Source: Herpetosiphon aurantiacus DSM 785
Lineage (GTDB): Bacteria > Chloroflexota > Chloroflexia > Chloroflexales > Herpetosiphonaceae
Assembly: GCA_000018565.1 (NCBI GenBank)
Contig: CP000875.1
Span: 1,565,199-1,629,198 of the forward strand
Reading direction: 5' to 3'
Length of the DNA: 64,000 nucleotides
In this document: in pieces, positions 18,496 to 53,345 of the stretch
Layout: every line of letters starts with the position of its first letter
Position numbering within the stretch: the stretch's first letter is position 1
Translations under genes and position numbers: made by a program
The notes under the pieces: model-generated
Told to the model about the DNA's origin: nothing
The model's database searches: none
Seen by the model: only the letters and a program-made list of their open reading frames with translations

Positions 18496-18504
18496 TGACC
18501 CCTC

Positions 18505-19881: not shown

Positions 19882-19925
19882 AAATCCGCCCTCCTTTGGG
19901 CGGGGGTTTGGTTGGGTTAATGGTC

Positions 19926-19958: not shown

Positions 19959-19965
19959 TCAATCG

Positions 19966-22900: not shown

Positions 22901-24009
22901 AACCAATCGGCAAAGGCTTGCACGGTGGGGGCTAACGCATTGCCAATATTCGTTTGCAGCACGGCAAACTGGGCACGAATCCCGTCAAAGGCTCGCGCTA
23001 ACCCCTGATCCATTTGGGTGTAGGCGGCCTCGGTGGCTCCGGCGCTGTTCTGCATCGCATCGAGCGCCCCCGTAAACATCTCGGTGCCACGGCCTGTCAG
23101 GGTCAGTGCTGCACTACCCGCTTCAACACTACTAAATAAGTCATTGATGCCCACGCCGCTGGCATTGGCGTGCTGCTCCAGCAGTTGCAGCGCTTGTTGA
23201 ACATTGCCACCACTTTCAATAAAGCTCTTGAACGACGTGCCCGATAACTGTTGGAAGAGGTCAGAAACCTCGCCACCGGATTGCGATAACTCCACAAACA
23301 ACTGGCGCAACATCGTGGTGGTTTGGGCCGTGGGCACACCTTGGGAAGTCATGGCGGCGATGGCTGCCGACACGTCGCTGAAGGATACGCCCAAGCTGGC
23401 GGCAATCGGGTTGACGTTGTAGAGCGTGCTCGCCAGTTCGGCAAAGGTGGTTTTGCCATAGGCCACGGCGGTGAACATCTGATCACTCGCGTCCTGCACG
23501 CTCAGCACGTCCGCGCCGTAGGCATTGACCACGCTGGTCAAACCGTCCACGGTGGTTTGGGTATCCGTTACGCCGCCGATAGCCGCTTTCTGTGCGGTTT
23601 CAAGGAAGGAAAATACATTGTCTTTGGGCACGCCGGACGAGAGGGCTTCATAGAGCGCGGGGATCACCTTTTCAGGCAGCGCTCCAAACTCCACCGCAAA
23701 GTCTTTGACCTGCTCACCCATCTGCTGCATGGCCTGTTGGGAGATACCAGGCAAGAGAGTGAACACGCTGTTCATCTGCTCTTGGAAGCCCGCAAACGCG
23801 TTGACCCCCGTGACCGCCAGTCCTGCCAAGGCTGCGCCTGCGGCAGCCACCGCGCCTGCAATGGCGGTGGTCAGTGCGGTACTCAGACTTTCGGCTAAGG
23901 ATTGCGCGAAGCCTTTGGCTTTGGTTTCGGCGTTGCTGATCGAACGATCAAGCTCGGCATCATCCGCGCCGATTTTAATAATGGCTCGCCCTAATTCTTC
24001 ATCGGCCAT
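19966..24009 (-). CDS. Tail tape-measure protein
   Basis: 1347 residues. Start MADEELGRAIIK with AGAGGTGGCGG upstream. The N-terminal third is a TP901-like tape-measure region (DGLTSVVNAYGADVLS, MTSQGVPTAQTTTMLRQLF). The middle (about 545-800) is a coiled coil made of degenerate repeats around STEDQLARLRQEQGQY and KLAILQGELANTNADQ. A hydrophobic patch of about 60 residues lies near residue 880-950 (GMGLVSLFSGLAGAVAAL). The C-terminal part carries repeated tryptophan motifs. A 1347-residue protein predicts a tail of about 200 nm by the usual 1.5 Å per residue rule. Confidence 0.9.
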   Translation of the reverse strand: MADEELGRAIIKIGADDAELDRSISNAETKAKGFAQSLAESLSTALTTAIAGAVAAAGAALAGLAVTGVNAFAGFQEQMNSVFTLLPGISQQAMQQMGEQVKDFAVEFGALPEKVIPALYEALSSGVPKDNVFSFLETAQKAAIGGVTDTQTTVDGLTSVVNAYGADVLSVQDASDQMFTAVAYGKTTFAELASTLYNVNPIAASLGVSFSDVSAAIAAMTSQGVPTAQTTTMLRQLFVELSQSGGEVSDLFQQLSGTSFKSFIESGGNVQQALQLLEQHANASGVGINDLFSSVEAGSAALTLTGRGTEMFTGALDAMQNSAGATEAAYTQMDQGLARAFDGIRAQFAVLQTNIGNALAPTVQAFADWLAEAMPRISAVVVGAFERIGAAVQMVGPYFLDFASTASEAFGLFIDLASSAVQWGSNIATQLANGIMGGAGAVVDSLGYIGDLITYWLEPHSPPKLLPNIDTWGRDTAQVWMDGWNDARLPTDGLLAYLETELKSIEDAQQRVKEAAQEQQLLALINSTGGKDSDREQAKLELAALKLRQKIREEQAKAAEQETKKPKASGGGGGGGKSPMDDAAKNAEAAARAQWEYTFSIAGTVDRLQMLKDKQAAYATTDAEYWRLQGQINQEEQKRQAELNKLAKEQRDYELSLMSTEDQLARLRQEQGQYAEGSAEYNDIQQEINKAEKQRQRELEEVKRKQDEAAKAERDYQYATADTAGKLAILQGELANTNADQSEYWRIKTQILQLEAQQQKELEASAEKMKGVGGAAKGAAKGVGALVPPFTKVKDGADETNQSMQDAATGAEAAADRYADLKDRQVEMATATAPVPSLIDRIRNAFSQAAPFIESVKGAFMGIAALFTGMGLVSLFSGLAGAVAALVSPMGLLVAGAAALGLAWQTNFATIRTITTEVFTSIQSMVQTAWGIITSWFRENGEQIVTFLRNAWGRIEGIVSTVLGAVGTVIQTALGAIRTFLEQHGEEIKGVLTMAWETIQVVIDGALDVINGAIIPFFHGIATFLSDHKDQITGLLSGAWSIIKGIVEAAMSVIQGVIKTVSAVIQGDWSGAWTAIKDVFAGLWNGIIDIVKGALEVVWNLLVVAWDLIGTGISTAWDGISDYFRTMFGGVLDNLDGFLEQFKNGVAVAWQWIKDASAAVWDEITNGIVEAFRGILSGIKSPLNLMITAVNKLIEGANTVGSALGFGGIPLIPYLADGVKNWAGGLAFASEPWKGIEAMRTRGGDFALLPPGISNIPRGAEVFTAEETKGMAARMVVPQGGMVGTLSNALPTNQPSAPSIINQITIDARQATNPAAIKAAVEEVWNKKMKDILGSANILLKTNPYGK

Positions 24010-24155
24010 GGCCGCCACCTCTGCTGATGGAATAGAACGCCCACGCGCCCATCCCACGATTGCGATTGTCGAATCGTGAAAAGCGGGCGCGTGGGCAATC
24101 CATCGCGGCGGCTTTGTTTCCTATGAAGCGGCGCAGCGGCGCGGGTTACATAGGA

Positions 24156-24278
24156 CTAGTCTTTTGTTTTGGGTTGCGCTTTGCGACGACCAGGCTTGAT
24201 TTTGTAGGTGTCGATCGCTTTGGCAATGGCTATCAACGCGCGATGGATGGCGATCCACATCGTGGTATCTGCATCCAT
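24156..24278 (-). CDS. Small basic protein between chaperone and tape-measure genes
   Basis: 40 residues (MDADTTMWIAIHRALIAIAK...) with GGAGACCCCT before the ATG. It ends in a lysine/arginine-rich tail (KPGRRKAQPKTKD). Too short for the usual ORF cut-off, but the spacing and ribosome site support it. Function unknown. Confidence 0.5.
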   Translation of the reverse strand: MDADTTMWIAIHRALIAIAKAIDTYKIKPGRRKAQPKTKD

Positions 24279-24294
24279 AGGGGTCTCCAATGAG

Positions 24295-25022
24295 TTATGG
24301 CCGGACCGATCGGGCTTTCATATTGGCGATAAGCTGGGATGCGCTGACGTAGGTCACCTCGGATCGGGTGCTGGCTGGTTGGGTAGTTGAGCCTTGCTTT
24401 TGCTTTCGCTTGCTTTTACCCTTTCCCTTGGTATCATCGCCAAACAACATCGTACCCACCTTAGTGGCAATCAGCATGGCCTGCTGCTCGCGTTCGTTGT
24501 GCATGCGGCGCAGGTAGGATGGCAGCAGCTCCAGCACGGTTTCTTCATACAGCTCGTGGGGTGGAATGCTATACACGGCATACATCACTTCTACCACATC
24601 ATCAGTATGGCTGGCTTCCGTTAGCCAATGCTTGAAAAACCCGCTGCCAAGACTTGTAACTTTTTTATCGGGACAGCCGCATTGGCAATGCACAGGAAGG
24701 CATCAATGATTTCGTCATCAAGAATTTCTTGATCAAGCTCGTGTGAAAGCGTGCCACTGGCATAGGCAATAATGAGCTTGAATGCTTCTTCGAGCAGGCC
24801 ATCAATGGACTCAAGCATGGCAACAATATAGGCCGTCAAGGCTTCGCCAGATTGCGTGCCAGCTTCATTGGTTGCGGGCGGTTTACTCATCTGATCGACT
24901 TGTGGCATCACCTTTTTGGCGACATCAATCAACTTCTTTTTGAAGTCTTGATTTTGACGAAACGGCAGCTTACGAATTTCTTTGACCTCGCCGCCGATGG
25001 TCAGGGAAAGCATGACAGCCAT
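24295..25022 (-). CDS. Tail assembly chaperone, -1 frameshift fusion (gpGT-like)
   Basis: The 0-frame gene reads into A AAA AAG at 24666-24660. A -1 slip continues in the overlapping frame to 24295. The fusion continues ...PIKKVTSLGSGFFKHWLTEA and then about 110 further residues ending in a lysine-rich, low-complexity region. The downstream frame has no ribosome site of its own. Overlapping chaperones joined by -1 frameshifting just before the tape-measure gene is the standard arrangement in siphoviruses; they are thought to coat the tape measure during tail assembly. Confidence 0.8.
24621..25022 (-). CDS. Tail assembly chaperone, short product (gpG-like)
   Basis: 133 residues, start MAVMLSLTIGGEVKEIRKL after AAAGGATACACACCC. 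Acidic helical protein; ends KKLQVLAAGFSSIG when no frameshift occurs. Most ribosomes should make this form, with a minority shifting to the fusion. Confidence 0.8.
   Translation of the reverse strand: MAVMLSLTIGGEVKEIRKLPFRQNQDFKKKLIDVAKKVMPQVDQMSKPPATNEAGTQSGEALTAYIVAMLESIDGLLEEAFKLIIAYASGTLSHELDQEILDDEIIDAFLCIANAAVPIKKLQVLAAGFSSIG
24660..24666 (-). promoter_or_regulatory. -1 ribosomal frameshift slippery heptamer
   Basis: A AAA AAG in the zero frame (codons ATA AAA AAG), exactly where the downstream frame overlaps. Canonical X XXY YYZ type. A hairpin stimulator was not clearly identified. Confidence 0.85.
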
Positions 25023-25079
25023 GGGTGTGTATCCTTTGCAAATGTTAATCAAACCAAACCTTCTCGCGCTCTCAACCCC

Positions 25080-25676
25080 TTAGGACGCGGCCTCAACCAC
25101 GCGGACTAATTGAAATAACCGCTCGCCCTTGGTGCGCGATAAGTCTTCCAAGGCGGACAGCTTCAGCGGGAGACCCGTCCAATCTTCTTTGCTAAATTCC
25201 AACTCGCCGCCTTCTTCCGCTGTGGCTTTCCAAATAAAGCCGCGCACCGGAAAGACATTGCCCTCCTCGTCCTCTTGTTCGGCTTCAAAGCCCCACATGC
25301 GGATGGGTAACTGGGCCGCGCCACCAATTTTGAAGGTTTCTTTGCCGACTTGGCCCACGCCCGAGGCCACCACGGTATTGGTTCCACCCCATGTACTGGG
25401 CAATCCGGCGAAATCGAGCTGGGCCATGGTCGTTTCGGCGGTTAATTCTTCGCTGACCTTTTTGCGCTTGACTGCGCCCAAGGCTTCTTGGATTTCGGGT
25501 GCTTTGGTTTCGTAGCTATAGGCCACCACCAGTGGGGCACTGGTCAAGCCGTACTGTACCCAACCTACGGGCCACGCGGCCCCAACGGCCAGGCTATCAG
25601 CAGGCAGGGTTGTGCCCACAGGCGCATAGAACAACGTGGCATTACTCATCGTTACAGCAGCAACATCGGTTGGCAT
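25080..25676 (-). CDS. Major tail tube protein
   Basis: 198 residues. Begins MPTDVAAVTMSNATLFYAPVG; includes VGAAWPVGWVQYGLTSAP and SYETKAPEIQEALGAVKRKK, which resembles siphovirus tail tube proteins (beta sandwich with a long hairpin). Located between the tail terminator gene and the chaperones, as expected. No extra Ig-like domain. Confidence 0.75.
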   Translation of the reverse strand: MPTDVAAVTMSNATLFYAPVGTTLPADSLAVGAAWPVGWVQYGLTSAPLVVAYSYETKAPEIQEALGAVKRKKVSEELTAETTMAQLDFAGLPSTWGGTNTVVASGVGQVGKETFKIGGAAQLPIRMWGFEAEQEDEEGNVFPVRGFIWKATAEEGGELEFSKEDWTGLPLKLSALEDLSRTKGERLFQLVRVVEAAS

Positions 25677-25718
25677 TCCAACCTCCTTTGTAGTGAAATC
25701 GGTCGAAATCGATTTGAT

Positions 25719-26105
25719 CTAATAATTCTTGATATGGGCCGTCCAGCCCGACAAGGCGAACAGCCACAAGGTTGTTTGGGTGCGGAGCAGGCGCGGCATG
25801 GCGCTGCTATCGGGTCGTAGCCGCGTCACGCCATTGCCGCGATCCATCCACGCATCACAGCAGGTGCGCCACAGGTCGATGCACACCCCTTCGTCCGTGC
25901 CATACAGCTGCACATACAGTGATGGACTGAGGATTGTGCGGGTGTAATCAAAGCCACCACCGCGAATCACACACAGAATCGCGGGGCCAGTATCCGGCGT
26001 ATAGCCCTGCGGCAAATCCGGCCCCACCCACACCCGATTGCTTACCAGTGCGGTCACGGCAGGTGTGCTCATGGCGGTGATGATGGCAGCAATCAGGTCA
26101 ACCAT
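25719..26105 (-). CDS. Tail terminator-like protein
   Basis: 128 residues (MVDLIAAIITAMSTPAVTAL). The N-terminal helix then PDLPQGYTPDTGPAILCVI and a beta-rich end fit the minor tail U/terminator fold. Overlaps the previous stop by one base. Assignment relies mainly on order. Confidence 0.55.
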   Translation of the reverse strand: MVDLIAAIITAMSTPAVTALVSNRVWVGPDLPQGYTPDTGPAILCVIRGGGFDYTRTILSPSLYVQLYGTDEGVCIDLWRTCCDAWMDRGNGVTRLRPDSSAMPRLLRTQTTLWLFALSGWTAHIKNY

Positions 26106-26530
26106 TACAAGCCTCGCTTGCGGCGCACGACCTGCACGATGCTGCCAAAATCGGCCTTGACCTGATCGAGCGCGGGAAACAAAAAGGGTGCTCGCAGTTC
26201 GATGTAGATCGCATAGGTGGCTGCGCAGCCGACCGCGCTGGTGTTGTCGCCCATGGCAGGCAATCCAGCGGATGTACGCTGCACCACATCGCCGTGCTTA
26301 TCTGGCAGATCGGTCGTGGCCGCATCGACCCCTTGCCCATCGACCAATACGGCATGGATGCTATTCAAGGCAAAGCCGGTATCAATGCTGTTATTGGCCA
26401 CCATATTTTGTTTGGCATGCCCTTCACCTGCCAGCGCCGCCTCGTTCAGCAGGTCGCGGGTTGCGCCATCAATGCGCACGCGAAAGCGCTTGGCAAAGGA
26501 TTGGTACTGGGCTACGCCTTTCTTCGCCAT
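26105..26530 (-). CDS. HK97 gp10-like tail-completion protein
   Basis: 141 residues. GHAKQNMVANNSIDTGFALN is the usual gp10 region (a helix then N-x-IDTG-x-LxxS), followed by YAIYIELRAPFLFPALDQVK, which corresponds to the conserved Y..Y.E.G....P...PA end. Head-tail joining or tail completion role. Third gene of the connector block. Confidence 0.75.
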   Translation of the reverse strand: MAKKGVAQYQSFAKRFRVRIDGATRDLLNEAALAGEGHAKQNMVANNSIDTGFALNSIHAVLVDGQGVDAATTDLPDKHGDVVQRTSAGLPAMGDNTSAVGCAATYAIYIELRAPFLFPALDQVKADFGSIVQVVRRKRGL

Positions 26531-26533
26531 GAC

Positions 26534-26944
26534 TTAGACCTCCTCGCGGGTGACGGTGGCCAGCTCCACTACGATGGCCGTGCCAACGGTAGATGGATCG
26601 CCCACTATGTCGAATGCCAATGGACTGGTCAGTGCCTGCCCATTGCGGTGGGTGATGCGCACGCGCCATGACGCACGAATCACGGTTCCAGTAGGCAGGC
26701 GCAGGGTTGGCTTGGTGATCACGACCGCCGTGCTGTCTAAAACTTCCTCGCTGGCAACGCCGTTGGCCGTGCTGGGATTGAACCCACAGACCGCCGACCC
26801 TGCATCGGTATAGGTGATCACGGGTTTGTTGTTGCGGCCTGCGCTAGTCTGTGGCTCCATGAGCACACAGTGGTCGCGCATCGCGTCCGTGTGCGTGGCC
26901 TGCATCACCGTGAATTCGTTGGGTCGCATCGGCAACATCGGCAT
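26534..26944 (-). CDS. Head-closure/head-tail joining protein
   Basis: 136 residues, beta-rich (VVITKPTLRLPTGTVIRASW, RVRITHRNG). Small SPP1 gp16-like head-closure size and position. No specific motif confirms the family; called by synteny. Confidence 0.5.
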   Translation of the reverse strand: MPMLPMRPNEFTVMQATHTDAMRDHCVLMEPQTSAGRNNKPVITYTDAGSAVCGFNPSTANGVASEEVLDSTAVVITKPTLRLPTGTVIRASWRVRITHRNGQALTSPLAFDIVGDPSTVGTAIVVELATVTREEV

Positions 26945-26947
26945 CTC

Positions 26948-27340
26948 CTACCAGCGACTAAAGGTGTCGAGCGTACCACTCATGGGCGCTTCTTCGATCA
27001 CCACGGGTTGATTGGTCACAAACTCGGCTTCGAGCTGCTTAACCATGCGCACCGCATGGTCGTGCATATCCTTGCGGTTGAATGTGCCGCCATCGGCTTC
27101 GAAGTTGATCGCGGTCACGGTCGCATTGGCCACGCTGCGCCACACTTCAATGATGGCCACGGTTTCCAGGAGCGGATCATTGGTTGACGCTTCCGTGGTG
27201 GCGAGATTGAGTCGTCGTAAGGTTCTTCGTAAGGCGGCGTTGTAGCCTGCGTTACTCACATCCGTCCAGCCAAGGACGGTCGCGGTTTCCAGCAGTTCTT
27301 CCAGCATCACTGCTTTGATCGTGGCATCGGTGTGTGCCAT
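26948..27340 (-). CDS. Head-tail connector protein
   Basis: 130 residues, helical (EELLETATVLGWTDVSNAGY, ALRRTLRRLNLA). Typical of gp6/gp15-like adaptor proteins by size and position directly after the capsid block. Confidence 0.5.
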   Translation of the reverse strand: MAHTDATIKAVMLEELLETATVLGWTDVSNAGYNAALRRTLRRLNLATTEASTNDPLLETVAIIEVWRSVANATVTAINFEADGGTFNRKDMHDHAVRMVKQLEAEFVTNQPVVIEEAPMSGTLDTFSRW

Positions 27341-27342
27341 GC

Positions 27343-27732
27343 TTAGGCCGCCTTGTACTCACGCAATTTCTTGATCGTCGCTTCGCCAATGCCATCGATG
27401 GCGCTCAACGTGGCATCATCGGCGGCCATGGCATCGCCATAGGTGGTATACCCCGCTGCGGCCAAGGTCGCTGCTGCCTTGCTTCCCACAATCGACTCTA
27501 GCGTTGGCTCGGCGGGTGGTTCGCCATTGGGCGTGCCTGCGTCGCCATCGTTGGATGGGGTGGGTGGTTGGACTGGCTCGGCGGCCACAGGCTCAATCGG
27601 CTGTGCGTCGGTGGTCGCTCCACGGGCAATCAACACATTGGCAATCGATTCGTCGAGCGCGTGAACACCCGGTAGATAGGTGGTTCCTAAATACATCCAT
27701 GAATCGGTTAATGTGACTTGCACTTTTGGCAT
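27343..27732 (-). CDS. Small virion-region protein with helix-hairpin-helix end
   Basis: 129 residues from MPKVQVTLTDSWMYLG; the ATG-proximal extension from 27846 is rejected because it overlaps the capsid gene. N-terminal beta strand region, a proline-rich linker (EPVQPPTPSND), then two HhH-like units (SIVGSKAAATLAAAG, LSAIDGIGEATIKKL). HhH motifs bind DNA non-specifically, so a packaged-DNA contact or neck role is possible. Confidence 0.6.
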   Translation of the reverse strand: MPKVQVTLTDSWMYLGTTYLPGVHALDESIANVLIARGATTDAQPIEPVAAEPVQPPTPSNDGDAGTPNGEPPAEPTLESIVGSKAAATLAAAGYTTYGDAMAADDATLSAIDGIGEATIKKLREYKAA

Positions 27733-27782
27733 GAAAACACTCCTTTGAATCAATTGAATGATTGCAACCTTCTCCTTACCCC

Positions 27783-28871
27783 CTAGATGTTCTTCAACAC
27801 GCCAATCGCTTCTGGCTCGGTAATGACGGGGAAGCTGGTCTGCCATGCTTCGCCTTCAATGCGCGGTGGCTTGTTCGACTTGAACTCGGTATGAATCACG
27901 CGGCCCGATTCGCTTTGGCCTGCGGCTCGCCCAACGGCGGTATAGCCCAAGGTATCGGTAATCAACGATTGTTCGGCATCAGGCACATCCAACTCTTCGT
28001 TGCGGCCTGTGAGGGCCACCATCACGAAGGCTTGGGCGTGCAGAAAGCGGGTATCGCCCGTTTGGGTGCGATAACGCAAGTCATAGCGCTCAATCGGGGG
28101 TAAGCCATCCATTTGCAAGGCCATATTGACCCCCATCAGGCTGGCACGACCCGCCATAAGTTCTAAAGACCCACCGTTGTTGGTCACAAAGTGACTGGTG
28201 CGCGATGCAACCTTGGCATTCCGCGCCATTTTGGTCAGCACAGGCGTGCCCGTAATGATCCGGCCCACGGTGTAGCCTTTGCTTTGCAGCAAATCAGCCA
28301 TGGCGTAAATATCTTCAAAGGGGTCGTAGGCATCGTCAGCCCAATCGCCCGCCACGTTGACGCGGTGGCCTGCGGGATTGGTCAAGGCTACGGGTTTCCG
28401 AAAGGCGTTATCGCCTTCAATGATCACGCTGGCATCGACAATGGCTTGCCAGCGCCATGCTTCGTTGGTTTCGATCAAGGACAAATTGAGCGTAGTTTCG
28501 GCCCAGCTCGTGAGCGCAGCAATGGCTTCCATCGAGGCATTGCGTTCAAGGTGTCGCAACAGGATATCGTAGTCGCGGCCACTCAGCTCGCGGGCAATAT
28601 CACTGTTGGCCAACTTGACATCGAACGTCCCGATCAGGTCGCCACCCTTCTTTTGGGCGGGGCCGTAACGCGTTCCCCCATTGGCCACCACGGTGCGGTA
28701 GCGAATGGAATCCTCGGTATATTGGTTTTCTTCGACCATGCGCTCGGGCAGTAACTCCGCGCCAAGGTAGCGCCGTTGTGGTCGCCCGAACTGAGCTAAG
28801 ACATTGCGAGCAAGCCGGATCAGGGTTCCGTCCGCTCGCGCCTGATTGATTAAACTGGCAATATCAGCCAT
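27783..28871 (-). CDS. Major capsid protein (phage E/HK97-type)
   Basis: 362 residues. GRPQRRYLGAELLPERMVEE and the downstream strand/helix pattern (IRYRTVVANGGTRYGPAQKK; ATLNLSLIETNEAWRWQ-like region) resemble the lambda E-family of capsid proteins. Placed after scaffold and decoration genes. The ETNEAWRWQAI segment and the long E-loop-like N terminus support it. Called from resemblance and order. Confidence 0.7.
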   Translation of the reverse strand: MADIASLINQARADGTLIRLARNVLAQFGRPQRRYLGAELLPERMVEENQYTEDSIRYRTVVANGGTRYGPAQKKGGDLIGTFDVKLANSDIARELSGRDYDILLRHLERNASMEAIAALTSWAETTLNLSLIETNEAWRWQAIVDASVIIEGDNAFRKPVALTNPAGHRVNVAGDWADDAYDPFEDIYAMADLLQSKGYTVGRIITGTPVLTKMARNAKVASRTSHFVTNNGGSLELMAGRASLMGVNMALQMDGLPPIERYDLRYRTQTGDTRFLHAQAFVMVALTGRNEELDVPDAEQSLITDTLGYTAVGRAAGQSESGRVIHTEFKSNKPPRIEGEAWQTSFPVITEPEAIGVLKNI

Positions 28872-28928
28872 ACCAACAAACTCCTAAACAGATTGATGAT
28901 TGAATGAATAACGATGCCTTCGCCCTGC

Positions 28929-29549
28929 TTAGGCTCTGCCGACCGTGCATTGATAGTGGCTGCGCACAAAGGCCTTGAGCGTGCTACTCAACCCTGCCCA
29001 GCCAGGTACAAAGGTTTCTTTCACGATGCTGTTGTAGCGATACAAATCGGCATCGTTGTTTCTGCTGGCATCGCTGATATCGAACGCCAGCAAATAGATC
29101 TCTTCATCAGCATCAGCAGCCGGACCAAAGGCTGTGCCGGCATCGCGCTCGGCCCAGGTGCGACCAATCAGCGTGCCCGAGACGATGGTGACGGGCTTGG
29201 TACCACTGCCCTTGTAGGTCGCTTTATCGCCACTCGTGAGGGCCACGGGCAACGCTTCAACGGCAATACTGGTTGCGCCAGCAGCAGCGGCAGCGGTCGA
29301 ATAGGCATACTTGCCAGCGGCAAAGCGCAGCAACGTATTTGCCGGAATAGGATTCACCAAGGCGGTGACGGCGATACTGGTCGCACTGACCAACGCATTG
29401 GCCGACAAGGTGACAATTGCGCCATCGGTTGCCAAGAACTGGCTTGCATCAACCGTGGCTCCGCCGGGCATTAAGTGCTCGCGGTCTAAGAAATCGCCTG
29501 CCCAAATTGGGCTGGTAAGTTGATTAACGGTACCGATTACTCCAGCCAT
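28929..29549 (-). CDS. Capsid decoration/stabilisation-like protein
   Basis: 206 residues. Two similar segments rich in A, S and T (SANALVSATSIAVTALVNPI and AAAAGATSIAVEALPVAL) suggest internal duplication of a beta domain. Lies between scaffold and capsid as decoration genes do. Function inferred from position. Confidence 0.5.
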   Translation of the reverse strand: MAGVIGTVNQLTSPIWAGDFLDREHLMPGGATVDASQFLATDGAIVTLSANALVSATSIAVTALVNPIPANTLLRFAAGKYAYSTAAAAAGATSIAVEALPVALTSGDKATYKGSGTKPVTIVSGTLIGRTWAERDAGTAFGPAADADEEIYLLAFDISDASRNNDADLYRYNSIVKETFVPGWAGLSSTLKAFVRSHYQCTVGRA

Positions 29550-29551
29550 GA

Positions 29552-30283
29552 TTAACCTCGCTTCGGAAGGCTATAGCCCATCCGTTGATTGTGAGTGGTG
29601 ATGGGGTCGTCGTTCTTGGGATTGCCTGCACCTTGGCGGACAAAGCCCGTTCCCCGCCCTGCGGGGGCTGTATCAGTTTTGAGAGCGGGCATGAATTCAC
29701 CCCAGTGTTTGTCGGCATAGGCATCGAGTGGGGTTTCCACGTCGCCATCCTTGACGGTGATCGTGGTCTTGTCGCCCTCGGTTTTGGTGATAAATGTGAC
29801 ATTGCCTGCTAAGCGCTCCAGCACACTCGACTTCCACTGCATTGCTTCAGCAACCGTGCGAATGGTGGCTTGTGTGCGGAGATTAGTCAGCTCGGTTTGC
29901 GCTTGCTCGCGCTCGGTCAAGCGGGTGCGCAATTCATCGAGCTGACCAAGCGCTTGATAGTCCCGCCAGCGCTGCACATCGTCGCCGCTGAGCACCACGG
30001 CCCCATCAGGAACACGCTCGCGCAGCTGGCGATTCTGGTCGCGATACTGATAGTTTTCCTGCATGAGCAGCATCAGCGCAGCATCAGGGCTGCCTTGACG
30101 AGCAATCAGATTGGCAATTTGACCCGCAATATCGGGTTGATTTCCTCCGCCACTAGCGGGCGGATTAGCTGGTGGATTCGCAGGCGGGTTGGCTGGCGCT
30201 GGATTGCCACCGCCGCCACTGCCGGAACCACCGCCGCCGTTATCAGCAGCAAACAATTTGATTGAGCGAAAAAAACGAACCAT
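29552..30283 (-). CDS. Capsid scaffold-like protein
   Basis: 243 residues. N-terminal glycine-rich linker followed by four PANPP repeats, then a coiled coil (YRDQNRQLRERV, then LDELRTRLTEREQAQTEL). The C-terminal tail is basic. Scaffold proteins are usually coiled coils next to the capsid gene. No protease domain is seen here or nearby, so maturation may be protease-free or use the zincin-like protein upstream. Confidence 0.6.
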   Translation of the reverse strand: MVRFFRSIKLFAADNGGGGSGSGGGGNPAPANPPANPPANPPASGGGNQPDIAGQIANLIARQGSPDAALMLLMQENYQYRDQNRQLRERVPDGAVVLSGDDVQRWRDYQALGQLDELRTRLTEREQAQTELTNLRTQATIRTVAEAMQWKSSVLERLAGNVTFITKTEGDKTTITVKDGDVETPLDAYADKHWGEFMPALKTDTAPAGRGTGFVRQGAGNPKNDDPITTHNQRMGYSLPKRG

Positions 30284-30289
30284 CGGTAA

Positions 30290-30745
30290 TTACTCCTCTA
30301 TTGCGTGCGCTGCCAGTGATTGCTGGAGCAGCGGGAAAATAATGCGTGTCAGTGCCGTAACAACCTGCTCTTCGGCATGGATTTGCATTTCGTGCATAAA
30401 CATGCCCCGCCGTTTAACAGGAATTTCGAGCAGCATGGCTTCAATCAAAGTCGTCAACGGTGCTACGAGAATATGAAGAAACTCATGTACCAAGACCCGT
30501 TTAAGTGGCTCTACTGGTTGTTGATCCCAATACTCAATCACGGCATTTGAATAACGATGATTGACGTGAGCAAGCCCCGCTGTCGTTGGCTCCTCGTCGT
30601 GTTGCTCTTTGGTCATCGGACGAACATAGATATCCCATCCTTGAAGGCTGAAGCAGTCACGCACCTGTTGTGCATAGGCTTCGACCCAAGCGGGGGGAAG
30701 TTGCCCGCTGTCACAGTCGTCTAGTGTTTCCGACGTGGCTGCCAT
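30290..30745 (-). CDS. Zincin-like protein in the head operon
   Basis: About 151 residues from MAATSETLDD (GGGAG 9 nt upstream; an ATG at 30760 is an alternative). VLVHEFLHILVAP contains HExxH, the zinc metallopeptidase signature. A downstream glutamate ligand is not obvious (HEMQIHAEEQ is a candidate). Could process capsid proteins or be a host-derived cargo gene; unusual in this location. Confidence 0.6.
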   Translation of the reverse strand: MAATSETLDDCDSGQLPPAWVEAYAQQVRDCFSLQGWDIYVRPMTKEQHDEEPTTAGLAHVNHRYSNAVIEYWDQQPVEPLKRVLVHEFLHILVAPLTTLIEAMLLEIPVKRRGMFMHEMQIHAEEQVVTALTRIIFPLLQQSLAAHAIEE

Positions 30746-31002
30746 CGCACTGACTCCCATACCTTTGGCTTTCGATTCGGTGCCGCTTCACATCCCCGTG
30801 CGGGTGGATCACCAACGCGGGATGGATGGATGCATGGATGGGTGAAGTCATCAAAAGACAGCAACCGTGTGGTCATTGGATACGGCCCGAGACTCAATGA
30901 CCGAAGCGATTCGCGAAGCTGTTCCGCTTTCAACGCGAACGCTGAATCGACCTCCGCCTGTAGTGCTCGCATTGCTTGCGCGGCATCATTGAATTCCATC
31001 AT
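30721..31002 (-). CDS. Small hypothetical head-region protein
   Basis: 93 residues, start MMEFNDAAQAMRALQAEVDS overlapping the previous stop (ATGA). Helical N terminus, then basic C terminus (RKPKVWESVRWQPRRKH). Translationally coupled to the gpF-like gene. Confidence 0.55.
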   Translation of the reverse strand: MMEFNDAAQAMRALQAEVDSAFALKAEQLRESLRSLSLGPYPMTTRLLSFDDFTHPCIHPSRVGDPPARGCEAAPNRKPKVWESVRWQPRRKH

Positions 31003-31994
31003 TGCGCCATCCTCCGTAATGCTTCGACCGTGGTGACTTGGGTGTTTGCACCCCACACCCCACCGCTGTGGACGGTTGCTAAATCTTCAAACTGAAAGAC
31101 ACCCTTTTGCCATAAGGCGTAGCGCCCTGGACCAAGCATTGATCGTTGGGTTGCTGCGTCCTGTTGCAGAAACCATTGCTTGCCCGTTGGGATCGCCAGC
31201 GGCTCGCGGCCTCTTAAAATGGGCACGATAGTGCATCTGCACTGAGGGTGTAGCGGCATCATCACATTGGTTGGATAGACCGTACCATCGAGCGCCAAAC
31301 ATGCCAGACAGGTACGCCGCTGGCGTGCCGCGATGCGCATGTAAGCGTCGGCTAAGCCACTCGTTTGATACTGCTGCAACGCAGCCAAGCGTGCTGCTCG
31401 AATCGACTGATCACGGGTCAATAACAAGGCATGATTGAGACTGGTTGCTAAGCCGTCATTGACCATCATCCGCGCCGTGATGCGCGGATTCTTCCCTAAC
31501 GCAAGGCCACTCAACAGGGCATCGGTGATGGCTTGGGCCGTTTCCGGATAGGCGTTGCTCAGCAAGAGCGCCAAGGGATTGTCAGCCCGTGCCAACGCGG
31601 CAATGTTTTCAAATGCGCCGCTGTTCAACTGCGTGAATGACCCTTGAATCGCGCCGGAATAGCGCAACCACGCCGTGGCCTGCTCCGCGCCCATACTGGC
31701 AAAACTCAACTGCTGGGCTTGCATGATGGCCGCTGCATCGGCGTTGTACTTGGCCAATTCCCGCTGGAGCTGCACCAACAACGCTTGGTAGCGCTCGTTC
31801 GCATACAGTTGCGATTCACTGACCGTTTGCCCATCAGCTTTGGTCTGACTCATTTGAAACGCCAACGCTTCCATTTCGGCCTGCAACGCCGCTTCGACCG
31901 TGCGCCAGCGTGTGGTCAGCGCGTCCATCGCACTCGCGTTCTGCGCCTGAAGCTCAGCACGGAATTGATTGGCAATGGCAACCGCGTCGATCAT
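30999..31994 (-). CDS. Mu gpF-like head morphogenesis protein
   Basis: 331 residues. C-terminal RRTCLACLALDGTVYPTNVM then HPQCRCTIVPI is the conserved cysteine/HPxCRC core of the phage Mu F family (minor head protein). The preceding ~220 residues are helical. Starts overlapping the portal stop. Positioned directly after portal, as usual. Confidence 0.8.
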   Translation of the reverse strand: MIDAVAIANQFRAELQAQNASAMDALTTRWRTVEAALQAEMEALAFQMSQTKADGQTVSESQLYANERYQALLVQLQRELAKYNADAAAIMQAQQLSFASMGAEQATAWLRYSGAIQGSFTQLNSGAFENIAALARADNPLALLLSNAYPETAQAITDALLSGLALGKNPRITARMMVNDGLATSLNHALLLTRDQSIRAARLAALQQYQTSGLADAYMRIAARQRRTCLACLALDGTVYPTNVMMPLHPQCRCTIVPILRGREPLAIPTGKQWFLQQDAATQRSMLGPGRYALWQKGVFQFEDLATVHSGGVWGANTQVTTVEALRRMAQ

Positions 31995-33562
31995 GCGGGC
32001 TGCTCCAATCCGGTGCTAGCAGCACCACTATCAAGTCGCGCTTGCTGCATTGCCAAGGCTGCGCCTAAACTTCGAGCGCTACGAGCCTGCTTTTCTTCCT
32101 GCTCGGCAGCAATGCGAGCCTTTTCAGCATCGACATCTTCAACATCAATCAGACTCAAGAACAGGTCGTGACTAATGGCCCCTTTTTCATAGGCGGCCAA
32201 TAAAAAGTTGCGTTCCTCGCTGCTCAGGCTACCCAGCCACAACCGTGGCGTGACATCGGCGCGGAGACTATCAAAGGCTTGAGCACGACCTGCAAAATGC
32301 GCCGCCAACGCGAGGGCCGCTTCGAGCACCCAGCGCACCAGCTGCTTGAGGGCCGTGGCCGTTGGCCCAAGCGACATCGCAAAATCCAACAACGCTTGTT
32401 TGCGGCTTTCCCCACTCGCCACCGCGTCACCACTCAGCAGCGCATGCAGTTGCTTGCACTCCTTGAGCATCCGGCTATAAATCGCTGCGTCGGTATCGAT
32501 GAACGTGCCAACGGGAACGGGTTCACGCCATTGCACCGATGGGGTGGTGTAACCCGTGATGCGCTCAATCTGCCCATCTTTTTCACGCATCGGCAGCCCA
32601 ATTAAATTGGTGGTTTTGCCCGGCCCGATGTCATACGGGCGATACACCCGCAACTTTTTACCCGGGTTGGCCGGGTCGTCTACTTCATCAAACGGCATTT
32701 GAGCATTGGTCATGACCCGCTCAACAAAGCCACTAATCACAATGTTGTGTTGGAGCATGGTCAGGGTCATATTGAGCGCCTTCTGCATTTGTTGCATGGA
32801 CAACCCGATCAAGGGCTTGCAGACGATTTCGATCATCAGCAAATGACCCATCAGCGGTAGCCGTGTTTCGCCAGTCATTGCCTCGCCTTCGAGCGTGCGC
32901 ATCACGGTTTGGCCTTCATCGATAAAGGTCACTTCTGCGACTTCTTTTTTATTGTCATTCGTATAGACATAGACCCCACATGCCTGCATCGTGGCTTTAT
33001 CACGGCTCACCCCTGCTTGCTCGGGCGCTAACCAATCGAGCCAAATCAGGTTCAAGGCATCGGCCAAGGTTTCTTGGACTTGAATCACGTTGTCTTCGAC
33101 ATAGGCGGGTGGAACAAACAAGCGGAGCACGGCGCGACCATGCACCACGGCGGTGGCAATGCTTTCTTGCAGGATACCGAGTACATTGCGCTGATCCCAC
33201 CAACTCGTCATGGCGGCTTCGGCCTCATCAAGCAAACCTTGCTCTTGGGGATTGGGTTGTTCCTCCTCTAGTAGCGGACGACGCACGGCATAGCTCCACT
33301 GGGGTTCACGGCCACACACGGCATTGGCGTGGCGCTCAATCACCTCGGCAATCACGTTGCTGGAAACAAACTCGCGCTGAATGCGAGTCATGACCTCGGT
33401 CGCGCCTTTATCCGTTGACGCAGGAGCTGGACCAGTCCACGCCGCCCCACCCTGCCAGTGATCGCCATCGCGAAACAGCACCGCACTTTTGACCGCTTCC
33501 GGCGTAGTTGGCAAGCGTTTTTTGGCGACTTCGACCGAGAGATTGTCAAAGGCTGTTGGCAT
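31991..33562 (-). CDS. Portal protein
   Basis: 523 residues. Contains VLFRDGDHWQGGAAW and NVIAEVIERHANAVCGREPQ, typical of SPP1/gp6-like portals, then a long helical C-terminal arm ending in a coiled coil (DAEKARIAAEQEEKQARSAR). Follows the large terminase by 8 bp. The portal ring forms the DNA entry vertex and the terminase dock. Confidence 0.75.
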   Translation of the reverse strand: MPTAFDNLSVEVAKKRLPTTPEAVKSAVLFRDGDHWQGGAAWTGPAPASTDKGATEVMTRIQREFVSSNVIAEVIERHANAVCGREPQWSYAVRRPLLEEEQPNPQEQGLLDEAEAAMTSWWDQRNVLGILQESIATAVVHGRAVLRLFVPPAYVEDNVIQVQETLADALNLIWLDWLAPEQAGVSRDKATMQACGVYVYTNDNKKEVAEVTFIDEGQTVMRTLEGEAMTGETRLPLMGHLLMIEIVCKPLIGLSMQQMQKALNMTLTMLQHNIVISGFVERVMTNAQMPFDEVDDPANPGKKLRVYRPYDIGPGKTTNLIGLPMREKDGQIERITGYTTPSVQWREPVPVGTFIDTDAAIYSRMLKECKQLHALLSGDAVASGESRKQALLDFAMSLGPTATALKQLVRWVLEAALALAAHFAGRAQAFDSLRADVTPRLWLGSLSSEERNFLLAAYEKGAISHDLFLSLIDVEDVDAEKARIAAEQEEKQARSARSLGAALAMQQARLDSGAASTGLEQPA

Positions 33563-33570
33563 CGATACCT

Positions 33571-35004
33571 CTAGTAGCTATTCCACGAGCCAGCCATGGC
33601 TTCGTCTTCGACTTCCATTGGTTGACTGGCAACCATCAGGGCAATGGCCCATGCCATCACGAAATCATCGTGATAGCCTGCGGGTGCGCCCGTCCCGCCG
33701 TTCTTCAAAATCCGATAAATCGCCAGTTCATTCAGCGCCGTTTGATTGCGAATTGTGACCAACACATCGCGCAGTGCCGTGGCGAACAAGTCAATCATTT
33801 GCGGCTTGGTCTGCGCATTGGTGAGCCACCCTGCTCGCCCATCAAGGCCATACACGATGCGGGTGAATCCGGCCAGTTTCATCGTGGTCAATACCGCGTG
33901 ACCGTGATTGTTCCGCTCAACCGCAACCGTGGCCCCGTACACGTCTGACAAATTCATGAGAATGCGAGCGTATTCGTCCGGTTCCCATTTGCCGTGGACG
34001 CTGGCCATTTCTTCCCACGACACCGCATCGATCAAGGTGGCAGCGCAGAAGTCGCCGTGCTCCAGCCCTTCGGCCACGTCCGCTGCCAGAATGTAGCGTC
34101 GTCCTTGCTGCGGCAGGTGGTAAACGGTCACGCCGTCCAGGAGCGAGAGCGATGCTGGAAGCTCATCGAGCGCAAGGCCATCGCTGGGATTTTGCTTCAG
34201 CAGCCATGGCATTTTGAATCGCGTGCGCCCTGACACCAAAAAGGCTTCTTGCGCGGTTGAGGGATATTCTTGCCGCACCATGTCCGGGTCGGTATATTCC
34301 TCAAGCTGGTTGTGATACCACGCCGCATCCCGCGTTGGTCGTGCCCACCACGGTAAAAAGATCGTGGTAAAGCGATTTTTGGCACTGATGGCCTTGAGCC
34401 ACAGTTGATGAAACAGATTGCCAATCCCATTGGCCGTCGATAAGACAATCAGTTGGCCGCCGCCGTCGATCGTGGGCTTGAGCGCGGTATACAACTGGGT
34501 TGCCCAGAGCAGGAACGCGGCTTCGTCCAAAATCACCAGTGATGCCGTAAAGCTGCGACCTGCCCCTTTGGTCGCGGGGAGTGACTTGACCCGACTGCCA
34601 TTGGCCCATTCCAGTTCGGTCGTGTTGTCCGTGACTAGCGCTGGCGAGGCCTCACGCATCCACTCGGGTAAGCGTTCATACAAGCGCTTGACCCGTTGCA
34701 GCATCTCATCGGCTTCGCCTTGGCCTTTGCTGAAGATCAGCACCACTTTGCCCGGTTGGAAGAGGCAGAGCCACAACGCATAGGCGCAACACAACCAACT
34801 AATGCCTAATTGCCGTGCCTTGAGAATCAAGACCAAACGCTGGATTAAGAGTGTCCAGAGCACCTGTACTTGGGCAGGCCAGAGCGTAAAGGGCATCGCG
34901 CCGCTGCCATCCCCCAACCCTTGGGCATCGTCGATTAATCCGAAGTGGTGGGTGAAGTAGGCAGGGTCGGCATGGCACTTTGCCAGTTCGACAGCATTCG
35001 ACAT
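33571..35004 (-). CDS. terL: Large terminase subunit
   Basis: 477 residues. Start MSNAVELAKCHAD with GAGGAAC upstream. The ATPase domain has the terminase-type Walker A LKARQLGIS and Walker B LVILDEAAF. The nuclease domain has LAADVAEGLEHGDF, VAVERNNHGH and a distal HDDFVMA acidic/His cluster. Full length. Cleaves and pumps phage DNA through the portal. The gene overlaps the small subunit gene by 70 bp. Confidence 0.9.
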   Translation of the reverse strand: MSNAVELAKCHADPAYFTHHFGLIDDAQGLGDGSGAMPFTLWPAQVQVLWTLLIQRLVLILKARQLGISWLCCAYALWLCLFQPGKVVLIFSKGQGEADEMLQRVKRLYERLPEWMREASPALVTDNTTELEWANGSRVKSLPATKGAGRSFTASLVILDEAAFLLWATQLYTALKPTIDGGGQLIVLSTANGIGNLFHQLWLKAISAKNRFTTIFLPWWARPTRDAAWYHNQLEEYTDPDMVRQEYPSTAQEAFLVSGRTRFKMPWLLKQNPSDGLALDELPASLSLLDGVTVYHLPQQGRRYILAADVAEGLEHGDFCAATLIDAVSWEEMASVHGKWEPDEYARILMNLSDVYGATVAVERNNHGHAVLTTMKLAGFTRIVYGLDGRAGWLTNAQTKPQMIDLFATALRDVLVTIRNQTALNELAIYRILKNGGTGAPAGYHDDFVMAWAIALMVASQPMEVEDEAMAGSWNSY

Positions 35005-35654
35005 TGTTCCTCACGCCACTGCTGCAATTCCTTGGCAGCCTGTTCCAACGCTGGACTATCAATCACAATCGGCGCACTGCGATCCCCTTTATGCACATGT
35101 TCTTGTTTCTGCTTGCGACCTCCCGTTTCCTTGGCCAAGTCATCGAGCACCCCGCGATAATCACTAATGAGGGCCGAGTTGTAGCGGTAGATTTCAACCT
35201 GCTCGGCATACTCGCCTGCCCCGATTTGTTTGACATCGCGTATCCATACATTCGGTCGCTTGTGTGGGTGATGTTCGTCAACCTCTTTAATTTGTTCTTC
35301 TAAATCCTTAGCCAACTCCTTGAGCTTGATCACCCGCTCGAAGTCAAGGCCTAAGCCGTCTTCAAACACCTCACGTCGTCGAGCGGCCAGCGCATCATTT
35401 TTTGCTTGCTCCAGCTGCGCATCATAGGCTTTCGCACGATCGGTCCAATGGAATTCGGTTGACCAGTGAGCCAGTGTTTTGAAGCGAACTGTTGGCGGTT
35501 TGTTGGCGGTTTGTTGGCGGTAGCGCTCAAGCAAGATGCGTAACGAACGCCCACTCCCAAGGCGCAGATAATCGTTGCAGGCGACTACCGCCTTATCCGA
35601 TTCGGTGGCGTGACGTTGACCTGTGATAAGTTGTAGTGGTTCGTGCGTGGTCAT
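34935..35654 (-). CDS. Small terminase subunit
   Basis: 239 residues. N-terminal region with NDYLRLGSGRSLRILLERY and W..E..W..RA (HWSTEFHWTDRAKAYD), typical of the helix-turn-helix and linker of small terminases. A coiled coil follows (LKELAKDLEEQIKEVDEHH). Bases 35490-35520 hold a triplicated GTTTGTTGGCG stretch within the N-terminal region, a possible slippage-prone tract. Recognises the packaging site. Confidence 0.7.
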   Translation of the reverse strand: MTTHEPLQLITGQRHATESDKAVVACNDYLRLGSGRSLRILLERYRQQTANKPPTVRFKTLAHWSTEFHWTDRAKAYDAQLEQAKNDALAARRREVFEDGLGLDFERVIKLKELAKDLEEQIKEVDEHHPHKRPNVWIRDVKQIGAGEYAEQVEIYRYNSALISDYRGVLDDLAKETGGRKQKQEHVHKGDRSAPIVIDSPALEQAAKELQQWREEQCRMLSNWQSAMPTLPTSPTTSD

Positions 35655-35785: not shown

Positions 35786-36121
35786 TTATGCGGATTCCTG
35801 CATCTTTTTCTGCTTTTCAGCCATCACGAGATCGCGGAGCAGGGTTTCGCTGAATGGCAAGCCATACTGGGTAAGATAGCCACTAGCAACCTGCACCGCT
35901 TTGGTCAATAGATCCTCAGCCTTAAGGCCGTGGGCTTCGGCTGCTCGCAAGCCTGCTTTCACTGCTCCATAAAGCGCGGCACGTTGCTCTGCCCCAAGAT
36001 TGGCAGCAGCCCAAGTGTTCAAGGCGTTTGCCGCTTTGGGGGCAGCCGATTTGAGAAAACCAACAGCGAACGAGAGGGTGGTCACAATGACCAGCGCGAT
36101 GGCGGTTTGAGTTAGGGTCAT
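35786..36121 (-). CDS. LLH-type phage holin
   Basis: 111 residues. One N-terminal TM helix (TQTAIALVIVTTLSFAVGFL), then an amphipathic helical domain (KSAAPKAANALNTWAAANLG ... LLTKAVQVASGYLTQYGLPF). This is the pattern of the LLH family holins. ATGA overlap with the upstream gene. Holins form membrane lesions that time lysis. No endolysin gene is recognisable nearby. Confidence 0.7.
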   Translation of the reverse strand: MTLTQTAIALVIVTTLSFAVGFLKSAAPKAANALNTWAAANLGAEQRAALYGAVKAGLRAAEAHGLKAEDLLTKAVQVASGYLTQYGLPFSETLLRDLVMAEKQKKMQESA

Positions 36122-36567
36122 ACCGATGCTCCTTGTCCAAGGGGTGATAATAATTCATCAATGGGGTCAAGCCCCGTGTGTTGATCGTCGGTTCGTGGAG
36201 AGGTGGTTGGGCGATCAAGGCCTGCCCGCCGAGGCTTTTTGGGCAAGGGGATCTGATGGTGATGACAGGTGTCTTCGAGGGCTTGGATGTACAACTGGGC
36301 ATCCATGAGCGCATAGGCATCGATCGTCCAGCGTTCACGGGCATTGATCACTTCACGCCGCAAGGCGCTCAGCGCCAAATCGAACTGGGCACTGAGTGCC
36401 GCCAGTTCGCGTTTAGCCGCATCACGCACGGCATGCAACTCGGCTTTCAAGCTAACGTTTTCGCGGACAACCGAGAGGTAGCCCCGCGCAAACATCCATG
36501 CCCCAACCATCACGACAATGGTGAGGCCGATCAGCCATACCACCGCACCAATCAGTAGACTATCCAT
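36118..36567 (-). CDS. Membrane-anchored coiled-coil protein (possible spanin-like)
   Basis: 149 residues, first gene of the late operon. One TM helix (residues 5-28), then a long coiled coil (VRENVSLKAELHAVRDAAKR... ), then a basic/proline tail. Same layout as inner-membrane spanins (Rz), and it pairs with a holin gene. No outer-membrane partner was found, as expected if the host lacks a classical LPS outer membrane. Confidence 0.5.
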   Translation of the reverse strand: MDSLLIGAVVWLIGLTIVVMVGAWMFARGYLSVVRENVSLKAELHAVRDAAKRELAALSAQFDLALSALRREVINARERWTIDAYALMDAQLYIQALEDTCHHHQIPLPKKPRRAGLDRPTTSPRTDDQHTGLDPIDELLSPLGQGASV

Positions 36568-36631
36568 AGATCCCCAACCACATCAGGAGGAAGCGAAGGC
36601 CAGGCAAGAAGGGGTTTGCACAGAAAGGAGG

Positions 36632-36680
36632 AAAACAAAAAGCAACAGGTTAAATTGGTCTGTGCAGACCCCTGTTGCTT
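36632..36680 (-). terminator. Intrinsic terminator overlapping the transcription start (copy A)
   Basis: Minus strand: AAGCAACAGG ... CCTGTTGCTT pairs perfectly over 10 bp with a nested GGTCTG...CAGACC hairpin in the loop. It is followed by TTTTTGTTTTCC. The 5' arm starts about 7 nt after the -10 box, so RNA polymerase would meet a terminator after about 45-50 nt. Confidence 0.75.
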
Positions 36681-36686
36681 GCGAGG

Positions 36687-36714
36687 ATTATAGCACGTCT
36701 GTGCTGTTTGTCAA
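36687..36714 (-). promoter_or_regulatory. Consensus promoter of the late operon (copy A)
   Basis: TTGACA (36714-36709) and TATAAT (36692-36687) with a 16 bp spacer, minus strand. Both hexamers match sigma-70 consensus exactly. Predicted start near 36680. Points into the late operon beginning at 36567. Confidence 0.8.
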
Positions 36715-36917
36715 TGAAAATAAAGCGAATTATCCCAACTTATCCCACATATCCCACATCTTTAATAAAAATGATGTTGCAATTGAAATCCTTACATAGA
36801 GCGAATCTGATAATCTTCAATTATAGGCTCTGTCTATGATTCAATGTTGTAACATACAACATGAAACTCTAAATCTTTTTTTTCGTAAAGAGGCAAAGTT
36901 AAAATGGAAGGAATTAT

Positions 36918-43388: not shown

Positions 43389-43594
43389 ATACCCCATTTT
43401 TTAGGGCTTTGCAAGGGGCTAAAATGAACGGTTTGCGCGGTCCGCTTAAATTTGTTCAATTAATGCCTATTCTGCGCTACAAATAACGGTGGAAAACTGC
43501 CTTTTAGACCATTGGAATGGGATCGCGCGGCATATACCACTTTTTTGCCAAGTATTGGCATGATCACGGTCTTGTATTCGCTGATGCTACCGAA
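43389..43594 (-). promoter_or_regulatory. CRISPR leader region
   Basis: Sequence right of the newest (non-degenerate) repeat, between the array and direct-repeat block B. Moderately AT-rich with no coding potential; includes CCTTGCAAAGCCCTAAAA on the minus strand. No cas gene is attached. Orientation follows from repeat degeneracy and the ATTAAAAC repeat end. Confidence 0.6.
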
Positions 43595-43641
43595 TCAGGA
43601 GGAAGCGAAGACCACGCAAGAATGGGCATGCACAGAAAAGA

Positions 43642-43692
43642 GGAAAACAAAAAGCAACAGGTTAAATTGGTCTATGCAGACCCCTGTTGCTT
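43642..43692 (-). terminator. Intrinsic terminator overlapping the transcription start (copy B)
   Basis: AAGCAACAGG...CCTGTTGCTT (43692-43683 with 43661-43652) followed by TTTTTGTTTTCC on the minus strand. The outer stem and T tract are the same as copy A. One base of the nested hairpin differs (GTGC to ATGC). Confidence 0.7.
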
Positions 43693-43698
43693 GCGAGG

Positions 43699-43726
43699 AT
43701 TATAGTGCGTCTGTGCTGTTTGTCAA
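43699..43726 (-). promoter_or_regulatory. Consensus promoter of block B
   Basis: TTGACA (43726-43721), 16 bp spacer, TATAAT (43704-43699), minus strand. Identical geometry to copy A. Confidence 0.8.
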
Positions 43727-43879
43727 CAAAAATAAGCCAACGTATCCCACATATCCCACACTCGACTAATATAATTCGTATCACCTAAACTATTGTGCTA
43801 TCACAAAGCCCACCTATTTCTCTACGATCACAGATGCCTTTGTTACAGTCGGAGGCAATGGGTATTCAGTATGTCTAAC

Positions 43880-52937: not shown

Positions 52938-53143
52938 GTTTTCACATTGTCATCCAGTATGGGACGGTTGAAACTCCACTTCAAATTGGTCAATTAAATC
53001 AGGATGAAGCATTGATGATTCAGCGCCAACTGACCACAGTTGCGCGAGCCGTGTTCGCTGATCTGGAAGTTCAAACCCTTAATTGCTTCCCGACCTATCA
53101 CATTAAGGAGTTGCCACATGACCCAATGGATTCACACCAGTGA
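52934..53143 (+). CDS. Small hypothetical protein
   Basis: 69 residues, ATGA overlap with the preceding gene. MSFHIVIQYGTVETPLQIGQ ... QTLNCFPTYHI; mixed beta/alpha. Unknown. Confidence 0.5.
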   Translation: MSFHIVIQYGTVETPLQIGQLNQDEALMIQRQLTTVARAVFADLEVQTLNCFPTYHIKELPHDPMDSHQ

Positions 53144-53345
53144 TGGATCATTTGAGAATCTTGGTGAGGCGATTGAAGCCTACCGAGAGCGCCAACGCAA
53201 GGCTGATGAAGCTGAGCAGCGAGCTGCCTACTTGGCATCAAAGAATGACCCCGAAGTGCAACAGTGGATAGAGCTAGCTCAGCGTGAAGAGGCGCTAGTA
53301 CGCAGTGCACGGACACAACGTCCAAACAAAAAGCCCACGGCCTAA
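53118..53345 (+). CDS. Small helical hypothetical protein
   Basis: 75 residues from MTQWIHTSDGSFENLGEAI after AAGGAG. Helical with basic end (RTQRPNKKPTA). Ends within a terminator-like hairpin. Confidence 0.5.
   Translation: MTQWIHTSDGSFENLGEAIEAYRERQRKADEAEQRAAYLASKNDPEVQQWIELAQREEALVRSARTQRPNKKPTA

Follow-up and report, generated by a model that had tools for sequence, protein, structure and literature searches.

A putative read-through-gated late promoter with a two-state leader in a Herpetosiphon prophage

Background

How are the late genes of a prophage expressed when their promoter leads almost at once into a terminator? The question is raised by an element on the minus strand (36757-36631) of the 64,000-nucleotide stretch of DNA analysed here (the window), in which boxes, a promoter and then a nested intrinsic terminator follow one another. 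For late genes, antitermination has been described chiefly in Proteobacteria, in their phages and mobile elements. We compared the element with relatives in five genomes of the same genus (G001-G005) and lean, with moderate confidence, towards a read-through-gated late promoter of a temperate phage.

Results

The element precedes the late operon of a prophage

The genome holding the window (6,785,430 bp in three contigs) carries at window positions 4045-59100 a prophage of about 55 kb, which is delimited by a 17-bp repeat and has a recombinase-type integrase at its right end. Its late operon runs leftwards on the minus strand, from 36567 to 16816. The late-operon context assumed in a preliminary description of this DNA is real, as the promoter-terminator element lies just before this operon.

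4045..4061, plus strand: attL core, 17-bp repeat
59084..59100, plus strand: attR core, second 17-bp repeat, 3' end of a tRNA-Gly gene
36118..36567, minus strand: first late ORF, 149 aa, no assigned function
16816..35654, minus strand: late genes, including the small and large terminase subunits, the major head protein and the tape measure protein

A homologue of the first late ORF with 95% identity heads the late operon of L055, a prophage in the same genome. Five consecutive repressor-like genes are encoded at 48799-51348 (minus strand), all of which resemble the single repressor of the G001 prophage.

A perfect promoter with a fixed box distance and a palindromic spacer

36757-36750 and 36748-36741, minus strand: two boxes GTGGGATA, read from the sequence
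36738-36731, minus strand: variant box TTGGGATA, the nearest box, ending 16 nt before the -35
36687..36714, minus strand: promoter TTGACA-16-TATAAT, 12/12 match (TTGACA 36714-36709, TATAAT 36692-36687)
36692..36705, minus strand: spacer palindrome AGCACAGACGTGCT, a putative factor-binding element

The predicted +1 lies near 36680 (minus strand). The perfect TTGACA-16-TATAAT and the two to three upstream boxes of the preliminary description were both confirmed, with a match at all 12 positions, a 16-bp spacer, two copies of GTGGGATA and one TTGGGATA variant. Promoters with a 12/12 match are expected 0.01 times per shuffled window and two were observed in the window, the second of which (43726) carries the same boxes and terminator. 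In the six promoters that we compared, the distance from the nearest box to the -35 (6/6) and the spacer length (6/6) are constant, at 16 nt and 16 bp respectively.

The spacers of these six promoters are AGYACNNNNGTGCT-like and consist of AGYAC followed by a GTGCT-like half, forming a perfect palindrome in three and the weakest one in the second window copy. The exact motif is found within the window at the late promoter only and is absent near the repressors, and the palindrome was thus rejected as an operator of the lysogenic repressor. Reading the sequence, we found no promoter between the terminator and the first late ORF. Nor did we find, within the first 25 nt of the transcript, a pause hexamer resembling a -10 (NANNNT), which counts against a gate.

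The boxes are real but not phage-specific, since the motif occurs across the order. Tandem GTGGGATA is present in 32 of the 45 genomes searched, outside Herpetosiphon usually at one place per genome and upstream of varied genes, and this wide distribution suggests that it is bound by a host DNA-binding protein. At L056 (5062-5304) and loci L091-L119, tandem GTGGGATA lies at a site that is conserved in many genomes across the order, in some of them near a DnaA-box-like TTATCCACA, and this site is possibly origin-related or regulatory. With regard to the boxes as oriC or DnaA sites, the sampled GC skew is flat and dnaA is located elsewhere.

A CRISPR spacer in G003 C34 (L068 4654-4690) contains tandem GTGGGATA and resembles the late promoter module. 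It matches the modules of G001 and G004 C23 at 27/35 positions, which points to infection of Herpetosiphon by phages with this promoter.

A predicted nested terminator with a stem maintained by compensatory changes

36631..36679, minus strand: nested intrinsic terminator (about +2 to +50) with stem, inner hairpin and U-tract; predicted end of the short RNA

The terminator stem AGCAACAGG/CCTGTTGCT (36679-36671 / 36649-36641) encloses the inner hairpin and is followed by TTTTTGTTTT. The 58-nt terminator segment folds at -19.3 kcal/mol (z = -3.64), and 0 of 200 shuffles folded as well. An intrinsic terminator with its stem at about the transcription start, as described earlier, is therefore supported, with a stem that begins at about +2, and the predicted default RNA of about 45-50 nt agrees with the 45-50 nt nested hairpin RNA proposed before. 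The structure was revealed by folding and was not listed by the terminator scan, in our surmise because the loop limit of the scan is 8 nt. Against the Rfam covariance models, the window gave hits to tRNA and to CRISPR repeats alone, and the element had no match.

The complete element was found four times, twice in the window, once in a G001 prophage and once in a G004 prophage, and the short RNA of each copy folds as a terminator. Within the stem, 3/9 pairs are changed on both sides and 0 are broken in any of the four copies, a sample in which two sequences are recent duplicates. The double changes are C-G to U-A and A-U to G-C in G001, and A-U to G-C in G004a. Pairs were counted on hand-picked segments because automatic alignment of the DNA puts the right arm of G001 and segment C of G004a (see below) in the wrong place. 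With three of the nine pairs doubly changed and none broken, the stem is maintained as a pairing. The inner part, GGGGTC(T)GCAYAGACCAATTTAA, is nearly invariant across copies.

The left arm of the terminator has a predicted second partner

36659..36682, minus strand: arm A, the left side of the terminator, common to the alternative helix; its first two bases may precede +1
36604..36624, minus strand: segment C, the predicted partner of arm A once the terminator has been passed

The 122-nt read-through leader has a different folding optimum, in which arm A (AGGGGU.UGCACAGA plus a GCAA block) pairs with segment C (UCUGUGCA.ACCCCU..UUGC) beyond the U-tract. This complementary segment was missed by the preliminary description, and the alternative pairing of the left terminator arm is new here. 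Taken as a duplex of the 19-20-nt arm, the helix comprises about 16 to 19 pairs in the four copies, with energies of -22.8 to -30.0 kcal/mol that were equalled by 1, 6, 0 and 0 of 2000 shuffles. Taken whole, the leader shows no unusual stability (z -1.00), a point against the gated reading, and the support for the helix comes from conserved complementarity. In G004a, the most diverged copy, the arms pair with each other at -30.0 kcal/mol, the left arm with foreign C segments at -21.5 to -25.5 and its segment C with foreign left arms at -23.1 to -26.2. The matched G004a pairing is thus favoured by 3.8-8.5 kcal/mol over pairings with arms of other copies, in a test that is informative for G004a only, as the other three copies are too similar. 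On this comparison of sequences, the complementarity of arm A and segment C is conserved in the four copies and co-evolving.

Segment C was excluded as a classical antiterminator acting on its own transcript: it is made after the U-tract, too late to save the polymerase that transcribed it. It would act, if at all, on the read-through RNA or in trans.

Distribution of the element and of other late terminators

43594..43760, minus strand: second copy of the element, 87% identical, oriented towards a CRISPR array at a distance of about 230 bp

This copy, also missed earlier, has no late operon downstream, which counts against a gate. The copies at 36603-36757 and 43594-43760 are direct repeats on either side of about 7 kb, possibly an inserted block, in which CRISPR repeats and uncharacterised genes are found. 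The CRISPR repeats inside the prophage (40045-40306 and 42290-43389) have a DDE transposase gene (40543-41985) between them and no recognised cas genes nearby. Similar CRISPR repeats lie between the repressor and the late module in the G001 and G004 C23 prophages.

A covariance model run on 60 genomes of the order returned the same four copies only, with filters whose stricter settings can lose weak matches. Among species genomes we found the hairpin core in Herpetosiphon alone, and two IMG/VR contigs that match it are probably the same prophages. Outside the genus, the element was found neither by the hairpin-core pattern in genome and viral collections, nor by the covariance model in the 60 genomes, nor in phage records, and a DNA search of 41 genomes gave only short box-like matches there.

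The prophages in G004 C23 (G4b) and G002 C25 (G2) keep the boxes and the promoter and lack the compact terminator, which we count against the gate; ahead of their late genes they encode an 88-aa ORF followed by a terminator of -39.4 kcal/mol. The 88-aa ORF is located between late promoter and terminator at L059 9581-9895 and L060 9388-9654. Another prophage type (L055 in the same genome as the window, G005 C53 and G002 C11) has terminators of -27 to -31 kcal/mol before the late genes, positioned in G005 C53 and G002 C11 relative to the following reading frame and not to an annotated gene. In a prophage type different from that of G4b and G2, the boxes are overlapped by an 80-aa cysteine-rich ORF. 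Overall, a terminator is present ahead of the first late gene in 8/8 late operons examined, three of them with the compact element. From these arrangements, a promoter-terminator gate on the late genes appears likely.

Two candidate read-through factors

4164..4379, plus strand: 72-aa C2H2-type zinc-finger protein, candidate late regulator
53118..53342, plus strand: p75, a 75-aa early protein, candidate late regulator

Only these two proteins are common to the prophages of the window, G001, G004 C44 and G004 C23, whose other genes are largely divergent, and we consider them candidate late regulators because they co-occur in these four module prophages. The factor had been described as not obvious in the window. 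This stands in so far as no Q homologue was found, while two candidates, the zinc-finger protein at attL and p75, can now be named. No antiterminator family was detected with PHROGs among 20 window proteins, a scope that leaves room for a diverged or unscanned Q, and this result counts against the gate.

In each of the three prophages with att repeats found, the gene of the zinc-finger protein is the one nearest the att site at the end away from the integrase, and would therefore come after the integrase gene in the circular phage. Between attL and this gene, a hairpin AACACCACC..GGTGGTGTT is followed by GTTTGGTTT (4110-4150); it is perhaps a terminator that separates the two genes in the circular phage. 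The finger part of the predicted structure has a pLDDT of about 80 in an overall poor model. The protein was not found elsewhere in 21 genomes. That it was also not found in G002 counts against the gate, although the module prophage there runs towards the contig end. The late activator Ogr of P2 is likewise small (72 aa) and zinc-binding, with a gene that adjoins the attachment site. The protein described here has a C2H2-type finger, gave no Ogr/Delta family match and had a weak Pfam zf-C2H2 match for one homologue, and it was thus rejected as an Ogr.

Four further matches were found for p75, including one in G002 C25 and three in or near the other prophage type. Its predicted fold is a beta-hairpin with two helices (pLDDT 83), which had no match in PDB by profile or by fold. 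It is similar in size to Xp10 p7, a small antitermination protein of 7 kDa (PMC4513864), but shares with it no sequence or fold match in PDB, and homology with p7 was rejected.

Discussion

Comparison with known gates

In lambda, and also in phage 21, a terminator separates the late promoter regulated by Q from the late genes. Q binds in the -35/-10 spacer, and lambda tR' ends near +194. The layout here is alike, and the near-palindromic spacer may be an equivalent of the Q element. Unlike in lambda, the terminator begins at about +2 and the leader has two states. The parallel with PR'/tR' drawn in the preliminary description holds for the order of promoter, terminator and late genes, and fails for Q and the pause; as neither a Q-family protein nor a pause hexamer was found, we do not class the element as a lambda-type member.

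The terminator is extremely close to the start, as had been pointed out, but not without a near precedent: at PA0807, an AlpA target in Pseudomonas aeruginosa, the terminator begins 26 bp after the start (PMC7969949). The AlpA binding element lies in the promoter spacer with a terminator downstream (PMC7969949), and the element here resembles alpB and PA0807 in the very near terminator and, possibly, in the spacer element. AlpA differs in its phylum, and the available text of PMC7969949 describes no alternative helix for it. The AlpA motif as stated there, GGGACGN5GGTA, is absent from the spacers of the six promoters examined. Neither candidate factor is known to be like AlpA. The GafY/GafZ/IHF system of the Caulobacter gene transfer agent has factor sites upstream, a near-palindrome in the -35/-10 spacer, where GafZ binds, and a terminator before most structural genes (PMC11150451). 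The upstream sites, the spacer and the terminator ahead of structural genes resemble the element here, whereas terGTA, a repeat array, comes after the first gene; here, the boxes are tandem GTGGGATA and the terminator precedes the first late ORF.

In IsrK of Gifsy-1 (PMC4825925), one promoter yields a short terminated RNA and a read-through mRNA, a stretch of the short RNA being complementary to the transcript further downstream. The terminated RNA here likewise has an arm complementary to the read-through transcript downstream, but the downstream genes form the late operon and the complement lies within about 60 nt. Our best reading is that the element works like lambda PR'/tR' or AlpA/GafZ and has an IsrK-like two-state leader.

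Proposed mechanism

In the gated reading, the strong promoter, below boxes of a host-wide motif, would initiate, and by default RNA polymerase would halt at the terminator, freeing the hairpin RNA of about 45-50 nt. The late genes would be on only if the polymerase were made to read through. We infer a phage factor that is loaded at the promoter, perhaps via the AGYACNNNNGTGCT element between -35 and -10 in the manner of Q, AlpA and GafZ; p75 and the zinc-finger protein are candidates for this factor. After read-through, the leader would refold, with arm A and segment C forming a hairpin of about 19-20 bp; this would remove the terminator hairpin from the late mRNA, and the new hairpin may be a processing or regulatory structure. 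The sequences show the anatomy of the element, its conservation, the covariation and the association with late operons, from which promoter activity, termination, the read-through factor and the role of the alternative helix are deduced.

A bolder version, which we regard as rather doubtful, is that the bistable leader (one arm forming the terminator or, after read-through, the long hairpin), the terminated and read-through RNAs and a small non-Q protein (p75 or the zinc-finger protein) together make up a feedback switch that decides between lysogeny and late expression. We know of no such bistable late-gene switch in Chloroflexota phages.

Alternative explanations

The element could instead encode an IsrK-like dual RNA, in which the short terminated RNA competes in trans for segment C and tunes translation, stability or processing of the late mRNA, while leak-through supplies the long RNA and makes an antitermination protein unnecessary. 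The anatomy is that documented for IsrK (PMC4825925), and arm A is complementary to segment C in 4/4 copies, co-evolving in G004a. However, arm A of the long RNA itself should pair in cis first, such a leader is absent, by reading, from the prophages with other terminators (G4b and the O55 type), and an AntQ-like partner was not found, so that we consider this explanation unlikely.

If the terminator were an insulator or attenuator only, it would lower basal late transcription in the lysogen, and induction would come from promoter strength (boxes, copy number) with leak-through sufficing. The near-perfect promoter and the boxes at a fixed distance, which suggest activation, are in line with this, and terminators insulate in mobile elements such as Tn916 (PMC11658703). 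The terminator here, however, lies inside the late promoter's own transcript and is kept by covariation, and the conservation of the inner hairpin and of segment C exceeds the needs of an insulator, which makes this a distinctly unlikely account.

We find it improbable indeed that the element is a free-standing small-RNA gene with other targets that lies upstream of the late operon by chance, the late genes using another promoter. The nearly invariant inner hairpin and the second copy at 43.7 kb, which is not before late genes, would fit such a gene. Against it, three different prophages have the element directly upstream of late genes, late operons are also headed by this promoter where the compact terminator is missing, and no promoter is visible from the terminator to the first late ORF.

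Least probable of all is a put-like cis RNA whose read-through hairpin binds RNA polymerase and confers resistance to later operon terminators: the structured leader is conserved at the extreme 5' end of a long operon and HK022 put is a precedent (PMC9378689), yet the anatomy differs and passage of the first terminator would be left unexplained. The put parallel in the preliminary description is accordingly weak, because the single nested hairpin here is itself the terminator while put consists of two stem-loops over about 70 nt (PMC9378689).

Conclusions

With a stop built in directly after a strong promoter, a special factor is probably needed for this prophage to make particles. The read-through-gated reading would offer a compact natural system of about 150 bp in which polymerase could be studied as it passes a terminator located right where it starts, and the two-state leader gives a specific prediction about arm A and segment C. 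If true, a promoter-terminator gate with covariation and non-Q candidates in another phylum would mean that this strategy is more widespread.
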